Source: Demequina capsici (GTDB lineage: Bacteria > Actinomycetota > Actinomycetes > Actinomycetales > Demequinaceae). From it: a DNA stretch of 64,000 nucleotides. Shown piece by piece: positions 41,396-45,274 of this stretch. The stretch spans positions 2,356,001 through 2,420,000 of the forward strand of contig NZ_CP134880.1 in NCBI RefSeq assembly GCF_032102965.1, given 5' to 3'. Within the stretch, counting starts at the first letter, position 1; each line of letters starts with the position of its first letter. The position numbers were made by a program, and so were the translations under genes. The notes beneath the pieces were generated by a model. That model was not told the origin of the DNA. It worked only from the letters and a program-made list of their open reading frames with translations, and did no database searches.

Positions 41396-42349
41396 TCAGG
41401 CGACGCCGAACTGCTCCGCTGTCTCCCGGATGGATCGCGCCGACGCCTCGAGCGCCGCCTTCTCGGCGGCGTCCATGGGCGTGGTGGCGTGGTGCTCGAT
41501 GCCGTTGCGGCCGATCACGGCGGGCAGCGACATGCAGACCTCCCCGACGCCCGGGTAGTCGATCAGCGTGGAGACCGGCATGATGCGCCGCTGGTCGCCC
41601 AGCACGGCCTCGACGATGCGCGCACCCGCGGCGCCGACCGCGTAGTTGGTGGCGCCCTTGCCCTCGATGATCGTGTAGGCGGAGCGCATCACGTCATGGT
41701 GGATCCGCTCGCACACCTCCGCCGTCATGACGACCTCGCCGTCGCGTCCGCGCCACTCGGTGAGCGGCTGGCCGCCGATGGTCGCGGACGACCACAGCGC
41801 GACCTCGGAATCGCCGTGCTCGCCCGCGATGTAGGCGTGGACGTTGCCCACTGCGACGTCGCACTCGGCGGCGATCTGGTGGCGCAGGCGCGAGGTGTCG
41901 AGAGCCGTGCCGGAGCCGAACATCTGCGCGGGGTCCATGCCGGACTTCTTGAGCGCGGCGAAGGTGACGACGTCCACCGGGTTCGTCACGAGGATGTAGA
42001 TGGCGTCGGGCGCGGCCTTGAGCAGAGGCGGCAGCACCTTGTCCATGAGCGAGATCGTGGCGCCCGCGAGCTCCATGCGCGACTGCCCCGGCTGCTGCTT
42101 CGCGCCGGCCGTGATGACCACCACGTCGGAGCCCTCGACGACCTCCACCTCGTTGGAGCCGAGCACGGTCGCCTCAGGCATGAACTGGATGCCCTGGGCG
42201 AGGTCCAGAGCCTCCGCCTCGACCTTCGCCTTGTTGATGTCGTACAGGGCGACGGTACGCGCGAATCCGCGCATCAGCCCTGCGTAGGCGAGGGTCGAGC
42301 CGACCGCGCCGGCGCCGACGATCGAGACCTTGGACGTCCTGGTTTCCAC
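41396..42349 (-). CDS. ldh: L-lactate dehydrogenase
   Basis: A 317-residue NAD-dependent enzyme reducing pyruvate to lactate. It shows VSIVGAGAVGSTLAYAGLMR, VITAGAKQQPGQSR, LVTNPVDV and the catalytic GEHGDSEVALWS. GTG 42349 follows GGAGGAACA; a TAGGCT -10 box lies at 42384-42379. The 41-bp repeat array begins less than 100 bases upstream of this promoter. Confidence 0.95.
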   Translation of the reverse strand: METRTSKVSIVGAGAVGSTLAYAGLMRGFARTVALYDINKAKVEAEALDLAQGIQFMPEATVLGSNEVEVVEGSDVVVITAGAKQQPGQSRMELAGATISLMDKVLPPLLKAAPDAIYILVTNPVDVVTFAALKKSGMDPAQMFGSGTALDTSRLRHQIAAECDVAVGNVHAYIAGEHGDSEVALWSSATIGGQPLTEWRGRDGEVVMTAEVCERIHHDVMRSAYTIIEGKGATNYAVGAAGARIVEAVLGDQRRIMPVSTLIDYPGVGEVCMSLPAVIGRNGIEHHATTPMDAAEKAALEASARSIRETAEQFGVA

Positions 42350-42454
42350 TGTTCCTCCGTGGGTTCGGGTCTGCGAAGAGCCTACTCGGAACGTGGGCCC
42401 AAGGTCCCCCAGGCGACAGGGGAGCACGGCGGCGCTGCCTCCGCCGCCGCTCTC

Positions 42455-42600
42455 CCCGTCGGGGTGCACCAGTGTCGCTTTCCGGGGTTCGCTGCATCTG
42501 ACGGGTTAGTGAGTGTCGGATCCGAGGCGCCCGCGCATCTGACGGGTAAGTGAGTGTCGGATCCGAGGCGCCCGCGCATCTGACGCGTAAGTGAGTGTCG
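42455..42600 (-). repeat. 41-bp tandem repeats, left (minus-oriented) arm
   Basis: The plus-strand heptamer AGTGTCG recurs at 42471, 42512, 42553 and 42594, exactly 41 bases apart. Read on the minus strand each unit starts CGACACT, contains CCGTCAGATGC (or a close variant) and ends near CGGATCC. There are three full units and one partial. The outermost unit begins CGACACTGGTGCACCCC and resembles the right arm most. Confidence 0.85.
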
Positions 42601-42609
42601 GGCGTCGCG

Positions 42610-42619
42610 GTCGCGCGAC
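42610..42619. repeat. Palindromic centre of the 41-bp array
   Basis: GTCGCGCGAC is a perfect 10-base palindrome near the middle of the 53-base spacer (42601-42653) that separates the two repeat arms. Confidence 0.6.
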
Positions 42620-42653
42620 CCCGCTCGCGCGGCGGACGGATCGACTCTTCCGG

Positions 42654-42840
42654 CGACACTGGCCCACCCCTCAGACGCCGCGACGGCTCAGAACCGACAC
42701 TGAGCCACCCGAACAGCTGTGACGGCTCAGAACCGACACTGGCACACCCCTCAGATGCTGCGACCGCTCAGAACCGACACTGGCCCACCCCTCAGATGCT
42801 GCGGCCGCTCAGAACCGACACTGAGCCACCCGAACAGCGG
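42654..42840 (+). repeat. 41-bp tandem repeats, right (plus-oriented) arm
   Basis: Units begin CGACACT at 42654, 42695, 42734, 42775 and 42816 (periods 41, 39, 41, 41). Typical parts are CGACACTGGCCCACCCCTCA, GATGCTGCGACCG and CTCAGAAC. The second and fifth units share a variant, CGACACTGAGCCACCCGAAC. This arm is the inverted counterpart of the left arm; it ends about 70 bases before the uvrD stop. Confidence 0.85.
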
Positions 42841-42910
42841 CGGGTGGCGGCGGGTGGCGCAGGCCGGCCATCAGACAGGCGGCTGAACGCAACCGGGTGC
42901 CTCGAGAGGG

Positions 42911-45274
42911 TCAGAGCTTCTCGAGGTTGTTGAATCGCAGCACGAGCCGCTTGACCTCCGAGCCGAAGTCGACCTTCGCCACGGCGTTGCGTCCGGAGCC
43001 CTCGGTGCCGACCACCTTGCCCATGCCGAACTTGTCGTGCAGCACGCGGTCGCCCACCTCGAAGCCGATGTCGCCGCCGCCGGAGCCCGGAGGGCTGGGC
43101 GGGACCCGACGGGTGCTGACCGCGCCCGCCCGCGAGTACGAGTTGCCGTCGGCACGGTCCTGGCTGCCGCCGTACCCCATGCCCGACCACGAGCCGGAGC
43201 GTGACGTGCCGCGGTCGGAGCGGGCGCGCAGGGAGGCCATGGACGCCTCGGAGCGCTTCCACTCCATGAGCTCGGCGGGGATCTCCTCGACGAAGCGTGA
43301 GGCGCCGAAGTACTGCGGCGCGCCCCAGCTGGAGCGGACCTCCGCGCGCGTGAGGTAGAGGCGCTGGCGAGCGCGGGTCAGGCCCACGTACGCGAGGCGC
43401 CGTTCCTCCTCCATGTCCTTGAGCTGCCCGGACTCGATCGACCGCATGTGGGGGAACGTGCCGTCCTCCATGCCGGTGAGGAACACGACCGGGAACTCGA
43501 GTCCCTTGGCCGTGTGCAGCGTCATGAGCGTCACGACACCCCCGGTGCCGTCCGCGTCGGGCACCTGGTCGGCGTCGGCGACGAGCGCCACCTTCTCGAG
43601 GAAGTCCGTGAGCGTGCCCTCGGGGTTCTCCTCGGAGAACTCTCGACCCACGGCCACGAGCTCCATGATGTTCTCGATCCGGCTGGCATCCTGCGGGTCG
43701 TCGGAGGAGCGCAGCGTGGCGAGCATGCCGGAGCGGTCGGCGATCGCGTCGAGCGTGCCCGCAGGGCCGTTGTCCTCGGCGAGCGAGCGGAGGTCGTCCA
43801 TGAGCGCCACGAAGTCCTGGATGGCCCTCAGCGAACGAGTAGCGAGGCCCGCCTCGTCCGCCTTGCGCAGCGCCGCGCCGAAGCTGATCGGAGCGACGGC
43901 GTTCGCCCGCTGGAGGATCGCGATCGAGTCCACCGCAGCGTCGCCGATGCCGCGCTTGGGGGTGTTGATGACGCGCCGCATCGCGATGTCGTCGTCCTCG
44001 TTCACGACAGCCGCCAGGTAGGCGAGCATGTCCTTGATCTCCTTGCGCTCGTAGAAGCGCGTGCCGCCGATCACCTTGTACGGGATGTCGGCGCGCATGA
44101 AGCGCTCCTCGAGCGCGCGGGACTGCGCGTTCGCGCGGTACATGATCGCCACGTCGGATGGTTCGACGCCGTCCTCACGCATGAGCCGGGAGATCTCGTC
44201 GGCGACGAACTTGGCCTCGTCCTGCTCGGAGTCGCCGGAGAAGCCGACGATGCGCGCACCCGCGCCCGCATCGGTCCACAGGTTCTTGGGGCGCCGACCC
44301 TCGTTGTTCGCGATCACCGAGTTCGCGGCCGTGAGGATGGTCTGCGTGGAGCGGTAGTTCTGCTCGAGGTGCACGATGTGCGCCGCCGGGTAGTCCTTCT
44401 CGAACTCCAGGATGTTGCGGATCGTGGCGCCGCGGAAGGCGTAGATGGACTGGTCGGCGTCACCGACGACGGTGAGCTCGCCGGTGTCCCCCACGAGCTC
44501 GCGCACCAGCACGTACTGCGCGTGGTTGGTGTCCTGATACTCGTCGACGAGCACGTGGCGGAAGCGCCCGCGGTACTCGGCGACGATCTCCGGGTGGTCC
44601 TGCATGAGGTGCACGGTCTTGACGATGATGTCGTCGAAGTCGACGGCGTGGGCGGCCTCGAGCCGACGCTGGTAGGGCCCGTACGCGGTCGCGGCCGCGT
44701 GGTCCAGGCTGTAGCGGCTGGCGCCCTCGGCGGCAGCGAGCGCCTGCTGCGGGCTGATCAGCTCGTCCTTGAACGTGCCGATGCGGCCCAGGATCGCCTT
44801 GGGCGTGAACTTCTTGGGGTCGAGGTCCAGCTCCTTCATGACGAGCTTCATGAGGTTGGCGGAGTCGGCGGTGTCGTAGATCGAGAACGACGAGCGCAGG
44901 CCCGCCGCCTCGTGGTGCGCGCGCAGGATCCTCACGCACGCCGAATGGAAGGTGGAGACCCACATGTGGCGGGCCTCGGGCCCGACGAGGGCGGCGACCC
45001 TCTCGCGCATCTCTCCTGCGGCCTTGTTGGTGAAGGTGATCGCCAGGATCTCATGCGGGCGGGCGCGACCGGATTCGAGCAGGTGGGCGATCCGATGGGT
45101 GAGCACGCGGGTCTTGCCGGAGCCTGCGCCCGCGATGATCAGCAGGGCGTGGCCCTCGTGGAGCACCGCCTCGGCCTGAGGCGGGTTCAGCCCCTCGACG
45201 AGCGCCGACTGCGTGGGCTCGGCCGGCGTCGGGGTGGGGTCGGCAGGGTCGGTGAGATCGAAGAGCGCATCCAT
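42911..45274 (-). CDS. pcrA: ATP-dependent 3'-5' DNA helicase UvrD/PcrA
   Basis: A 787-residue superfamily-1 helicase for repair and conflict resolution. Walker A AGAGSGKTRVLTHRIAHLL near residue 52, Walker B VLVDEYQDTNHAQY, motif III ADQSIYAFRGA, QNYRSTQTIL, and VTLMTLHTAKGLEFPVVF. The C-terminal 60 residues carry the PcrA-type GDRVLHDKFGMGKVV segment. A TAGACT box lies nine bases upstream of the ATG. Confidence 0.95.
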   Translation of the reverse strand: MDALFDLTDPADPTPTPAEPTQSALVEGLNPPQAEAVLHEGHALLIIAGAGSGKTRVLTHRIAHLLESGRARPHEILAITFTNKAAGEMRERVAALVGPEARHMWVSTFHSACVRILRAHHEAAGLRSSFSIYDTADSANLMKLVMKELDLDPKKFTPKAILGRIGTFKDELISPQQALAAAEGASRYSLDHAAATAYGPYQRRLEAAHAVDFDDIIVKTVHLMQDHPEIVAEYRGRFRHVLVDEYQDTNHAQYVLVRELVGDTGELTVVGDADQSIYAFRGATIRNILEFEKDYPAAHIVHLEQNYRSTQTILTAANSVIANNEGRRPKNLWTDAGAGARIVGFSGDSEQDEAKFVADEISRLMREDGVEPSDVAIMYRANAQSRALEERFMRADIPYKVIGGTRFYERKEIKDMLAYLAAVVNEDDDIAMRRVINTPKRGIGDAAVDSIAILQRANAVAPISFGAALRKADEAGLATRSLRAIQDFVALMDDLRSLAEDNGPAGTLDAIADRSGMLATLRSSDDPQDASRIENIMELVAVGREFSEENPEGTLTDFLEKVALVADADQVPDADGTGGVVTLMTLHTAKGLEFPVVFLTGMEDGTFPHMRSIESGQLKDMEEERRLAYVGLTRARQRLYLTRAEVRSSWGAPQYFGASRFVEEIPAELMEWKRSEASMASLRARSDRGTSRSGSWSGMGYGGSQDRADGNSYSRAGAVSTRRVPPSPPGSGGGDIGFEVGDRVLHDKFGMGKVVGTEGSGRNAVAKVDFGSEVKRLVLRFNNLEKL

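Follow-up and report, generated by a model that had tools for sequence, protein, structure and literature searches.

A dispersed 41-bp paired-box repeat in Demequina and its association with an AbiEi-like MTES_1575/DUF559 nuclease gene

The repeat array between uvrD and ldh of Demequina capsici is, judged from its sequence, a gene-less and tandemly enlarged copy of a two-box repeat dispersed in the genome. Flanking position and box version link this repeat to a resident gene whose product combines an AbiEi-like region with an MTES_1575/DUF559 nuclease domain (Vsr-type PD-(D/E)XK). We consider it probable, although far from certain, that this nuclease is the cognate enzyme of the repeat, in a partnership that resembles REP/RAYT but employs an unrelated enzyme, and we infer that it may bind, cut and mobilize the repeat. 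The window, i.e., the whole 64,000-nucleotide stretch analyzed, spans positions 2356001 to 2420000 of the 3.08-Mb host chromosome (C1 of G000, the genome carrying the array). The Demequina comparison set comprised 44 genomes, and genes in genomic contexts were called with a simple script. Two arms pointing outward from a short centre make up the array, with features at the following window positions:

41396–42349, minus strand: ldh, L-lactate dehydrogenase, its 5′ side facing the left arm
42418–42457, no strand: GC-rich hairpin (GGGGAGCACGGCGGCG...CGCCGCCGCTCTCCCC) abutting the left arm, read from sequence and outside the repeat family
42462–42601, minus strand: left arm, four 17-bp boxes and three 24-nt linkers, pointing toward ldh and matched by the profile
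42585–42601, 42544–42560, 42503–42519 and 42462–42478, minus strand: left-arm boxes, from the innermost outward
42602–42652, no strand: array centre of 51 bp, from which the arms point outward
42610–42619: palindrome GTCGCGCGAC inside the array centre
42653–42831, plus strand: right arm, five boxes
42653–42669, 42694–42710, 42733–42749, 42774–42790 and 42815–42831, plus strand: right-arm boxes
42832–42835, plus strand: outer end signature GAAC (ACCC-GAAC), after the last right-arm box
42911–45274, minus strand: uvrD/pcrA-type helicase, its 3′ end 79 bp from the right arm, which faces it

The first-pass annotation had described CGACACT as recurring every 41 bp, at 42600, 42559, 42518 and 42477 on the minus strand and from 42654 to 42816 on the plus strand, in head-to-head arms about a palindromic centre of 53 bp. 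These positions, the layout and the palindrome were all recovered, and the repeat array as observed is confirmed; its interpretation is partly supported. However, the centre measures 51 bp, and while the left-arm steps are all exactly 41 bp, those of the right arm are 41, 39, 41 and 41, the shorter step running from 42695 to 42734. TRF returned a period of 41 in both arms, with boxes of the form CCGACACTnnCnnACCC and linkers approximating GTCAGATGCAGCGACCTCTCAGAA. A degenerate box pattern matched 15 times in the window, nine of these in the array, as compared to 4.2 ± 2.0 matches in shuffled sequence. Units are indeed more alike within than between arms (linker similarity 0.72 within the left arm, 0.89 within the right and 0.63 between them), and the outermost left box is, as first noticed, nearer to right-arm boxes (13–15/17) than to left-arm boxes (10–11/17). 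Inversion followed by separate homogenization had been proposed, a reading made needless by the fact that outward inverted pairs are the usual two-arm form of the family at many loci. The right arm contains an 80-bp duplication (D1), and GAAC, an end signature also common to many dispersed copies, follows both its second and its fifth box, so that the arm resembles a dimer fused head to tail to a trimer by duplication. The array had been taken to be neither CRISPR nor coding, and both statements stand: the whole 41-bp unit repeats with homologous linkers and no unique spacers, and 41 is not divisible by 3, so the unit codes for no repeated peptide. Immediately outside the right arm, GCGGCGGGTG is repeated 2.3 times (42837–42859). 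The long GC-rich hairpin on the other side carries no T-run and separates the array from the ldh promoter region.

A profile of the unit, an approach suggested in the first-pass annotation for the genome and its relatives, revealed a dispersed family. The array's own genome yielded 28 BLAST matches and 43 profile matches, mostly two-box dimers, with ~25 scattered copies. The basic unit consists of two direct boxes of 17 to 20 bp at 41-bp spacing, often arranged as outward-facing inverted pairs, adjacent opposite-strand arms being ordered minus then plus and hence pointing outward. Profile matches were present in 25/44 Demequina genomes (1–58 per genome), and none to this box version was obtained at E ≤ 1e-4 in other genera of the order (71 sampled); profile and pattern counts vary with the box version chosen. 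At four orthologous sites compared between G005 and G042, identity was 88% in the arms, 75% in the flanks and 49% in the centres, so within the elements it is the centre that changes fast. At a fifth orthologous site, the centre measures 15 bp in one species (L165:16911–17039) and 967 bp in the other (L174:2471–3552), where it contains a 231-aa gene, the product of which had no match in a Pfam search. Outward arms in G017 (L183:726–2509) enclose an ISL3-family transposase gene. That the array is a source of structured RNA, as had also been suggested, is exceedingly improbable: the single locus does fold strongly (z −7.1), but because its arms are inverted, while an alignment of 33 dimers gave zero predicted conserved base pairs and an Rfam scan gave no match that attained its gathering score.

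The same nuclease gene was found between outward arms in G000, G017 and G042. In G000 it occupies C1:1969510–1970430, beside clpX (named from its C-terminal sequence) and ~428 kb from the array, and is flanked by arms at 1969346–1969404 (minus) and 1970455–1970511 (plus). Its product of ~310 residues has an AbiEi-like N-terminal part and a C-terminal MTES_1575/DUF559 nuclease domain, the latter described as a Vsr-type REase (PMC3710099). The MTES_1575 profile matched 27/27 of the nucleases and the AbiEi profile (PADLOC PDLC02228) 26/27, at best 3.6e-15; Pfam AbiEi_4 gave a weak match, below cut-off. Residues D240, E251, D253, H258 and D267 are invariant across 27 orthologs, consistent with an active PD-(D/E)XK nuclease in which they would have catalytic roles. 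A PDB profile search returned nothing significant (an AbiEi chain at E 0.57), NCBIfam gave no match, and no HuH/Y1 match was found in Pfam or PADLOC. A homolog is present in 44/44 Demequina genomes, with the best match usually beside clpX, and in most of them the clpX-adjacent gene is flanked on both sides by paired boxes. Being single-copy and mostly staying beside clpX, the gene itself does not behave as mobile. Both AbiEi and Vsr-type domains are characteristic of conflict systems (PMC3710099; PADLOC matches), and the nuclease might instead serve defense or addiction, attacking DNA without (or with) boxes while the chromosome would be protected or licensed by its dispersed repeats. We regard this as improbable, as repeat matches range from 1 to 58 and are absent by profile from many genomes that nonetheless carry the nuclease homolog, and as an unsystematic reading of the loci, where the adjoining genes were clpX and unrelated genes, revealed no toxin partner or methylase beside the gene.

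Box sequences differ between species, and the dispersed copies tested mostly match the version that flanks the nuclease gene of their own genome, with exceptions. The flanking version is CGACACT..ACCC in G000, TTCCCC in G014 and G018, and GTCCCAT or GCCCCAT in G022, G025, G029 and G007. In a search for 41-bp-spaced dimers across all 44 genomes, in which the gene’s own flanks and a few palindromic matches that overlap were counted as well, CCCAT-type dimers numbered 42 in G007, 23 in G022, 17 in G025 and 16 in G029, and TTCCCC-type dimers 23 in G014, 19 in G018, 12 in G023 and five in G035; the nuclease flanks in each of these genomes were of the same type. The same search found zero dimers of either type in G000, and reversed-pattern controls were near zero. 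The matching is imperfect: G009 exhibited 14 TTCCCC dimers and G013 exhibited 22 CCCAT (GCCCCAT) dimers, while on the clpX side both show flanks of a different type. Two possible explanations are that versions have been replaced or that these families are linked to paralogs. Divergence of the gene (as protein) correlated weakly, though above chance, with that of the arms (Mantel r 0.19; 34/2000 permutations as high). Since the element flanks a resident nuclease gene in a species-specific version, the nuclease is its likely partner.

The flanks were also examined by a direct-repeat lag test that assumes no sequence and takes the best of 59 lags for each flank. The best lag was 41 in 27/60 nuclease flanks and in 32/88 of a larger set, where the runner-up, 42, was best in 10. 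An inverted match of at least 18/20 bases between the two flanks of a gene was observed for 61% of the orthologs, for 64% of the paralogs within Demequina and for 13/20 (65%) small MTES_1575 genes from other Actinomycetales genera, as compared to 0 to 0.5% of Markov shuffles and 1.9% of 210 ordinary genes; ~39% of ortholog flanks fell below the 18/20 mark. Two small MTES_1575 genes from genera outside Demequina (L293 and L298) are bordered on either side by direct repeats, near-perfect and 41 bp in period, which suggests that the same spacing occurs in another family of the order. An MTES_1575/DUF559 match was present in 57/59 sampled genomes of the order. In G000, a second paralog (C1:2226279–2227148, L234) has flanking GCGTCACGnnTGTCGATCTG boxes 42 bp apart and of other sequence, and GCGTCACGnnTGTCGATCTG pairs or triplets at 41 to 42 bp are present elsewhere (C1:236236–236295, 689474–689574, 1192842–1192902 and 2071261–2071320). 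A third (C1:2746529–2747398, L235) has palindromic flanking boxes (GAGATGGCACGTGAG...), so layout varies between nuclease subfamilies. These observations bear on the alternative of a MITE-like family moved by an unrelated transposase, with the nuclease gene a passenger caught between two copies. Genes for a GNAT acetyltransferase, a methyltransferase and the ISL3 transposase are likewise found between arms, and the 231-aa gene is there in only one of two species, as passengers might be. However, a passenger is not expected to track repeat version, whereas the nuclease is flanked by the species-specific version in most Demequina genomes, its paralogs have different flanking repeats of their own, and homologs in other genera are likewise flanked; we therefore think a mere passenger quite unlikely.

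The genomic positions of the elements are biased. Of 90 arms, 68 point toward a stop codon on the opposite strand, and convergent-gene spaces are over-represented among arm sites (27/59 versus 10/74 controls, p = 7e-5). AbiEi proteins specifically recognize pairs of 23-bp repeats within the promoters of their own genes (PMC7319586). This precedent, together with the AbiEi profile matches of the nuclease N-terminal region and the boxes in both gene flanks, could be accommodated by operators for autorepression by the AbiEi-like protein, the scattered copies forming a regulon or titrating the repressor and the nuclease domain acting elsewhere. Such an arrangement is unlikely given that boxes are also present behind the nuclease stop codon, that the scattered arms avoid promoters and that arm positions vary between species. 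The strong bias toward gene ends might also reflect a factor-dependent transcription terminator or roadblock behind genes. We find this very improbable, as a promoter and terminator scan found neither, with no terminator-like structure, as the family has no conserved RNA structure, as the same gene ends occur in relatives without the element, and as the nuclease link would be left unexplained.

Comparison of orthologous gaps indicates that element position differs between species. In the nearest relatives the uvrD–ldh gap is 71 to 115 bp and the array is absent. The first-pass annotation had held that a lack of periodicity here in relatives would mean that the array is no real conserved element; the lack is indeed seen at uvrD–ldh, but the conclusion fails because the element is dispersed and its positions differ between species. 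Regulation of ldh, just upstream of whose promoter the array had been placed, is not indicated, because the nearest relatives keep the ldh region without it. At a filled and empty orthologous site in the space separating two convergent genes, G025 and G029 have a dimer immediately after a stop codon and G022 and G000 have none; the flanks of these relatives are too diverged to define a target-site duplication or the exact insertion boundary. The site of one G029 array (L323) has different multi-kilobase gene content in G025 and G000 (L341 and L342).

In the favored reading, with the nuclease as cognate enzyme, the AbiEi-like N-terminal region would bind the boxes, and two boxes so bound would come together. 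The nuclease domain would then nick or cut at or near the boxes, and copies would enter new sites, with a preference for positions behind gene ends. The uvrD–ldh array is probably a multi-site protein-binding array, one of the roles first suggested for it.

The closest working analogy is REP sequences with TnpA-REP. Like REP/BIME elements and their TnpA-REP (RAYT) enzymes in REPtrons (PMC8266576), the Demequina repeats are numerous, short, noncoding and intergenic, and often form inverted pairs whose linker varies; the enzyme gene, single-copy and nonmobile, resides between the same repeats, and repeats and enzyme diversify together. In contrast, the REP enzyme is a HuH Y1 transposase whereas that of Demequina is an AbiEi-like Vsr/PD-(D/E)XK nuclease, and REP repeats are 20- to 50-nt palindromes (hairpins) whereas the Demequina repeats are 41-bp direct-repeat dimers with no conserved hairpin. 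The REP tag GTAG is also absent from the Demequina box consensus, the conserved part of which is CGAC..T. Given the dimer form and the lack of both hairpin and tag, double-stranded recognition is more likely. With AbiEi antitoxin/regulators of type IV toxin–antitoxin systems (PMC7319586) the nuclease shares the AbiEi-like region and paired, specific sites of ~20 bp near the gene, but in Demequina this region is fused to a nuclease domain, and the sites both flank the gene and recur genome-wide. AbiE systems have an adjacent DUF1814 toxin gene; in the Demequina loci read, no toxin partner was noticed beside the nuclease gene. The elements resemble MITEs and mobile insertion cassettes in being non-autonomous, with inverted ends and sometimes an enclosed cargo gene. 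They differ in that the partner is a nuclease rather than a recognized transposase, with no transposase with matching ends found, and in that each end consists of at least two boxes in tandem, a fixed distance apart. MIRU/VNTR loci likewise comprise intergenic tandem units of similar length and variable copy number, but the Demequina element is inverted and two-armed, has the dimer as its basic form and is tied to a specific nuclease gene.

No paper tying DUF559 or MTES_1575 to dispersed repeats, no description of a repeat–nuclease system and no function or target for small AbiEi-fused proteins was found in the literature searched, which included few subscription journals. It is conceivable, at somewhat less than even chances, that the small nucleases of AbiEi-like/MTES_1575 (DUF559) type across Actinomycetales serve as enzymes in a new repeat-spreading class, each with its own paired-box repeat and mechanistically unrelated to HuH-based REP/RAYT. 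If so, a large family of obscure function would gain its DNA target. Because each protein has a candidate substrate in its flanking repeats, both binding and cutting are open to direct testing, and the species-specific box versions would offer a natural series for nuclease–target co-change. If confirmed, REP/RAYT-type partnerships would have arisen at least twice, with unrelated enzymes.
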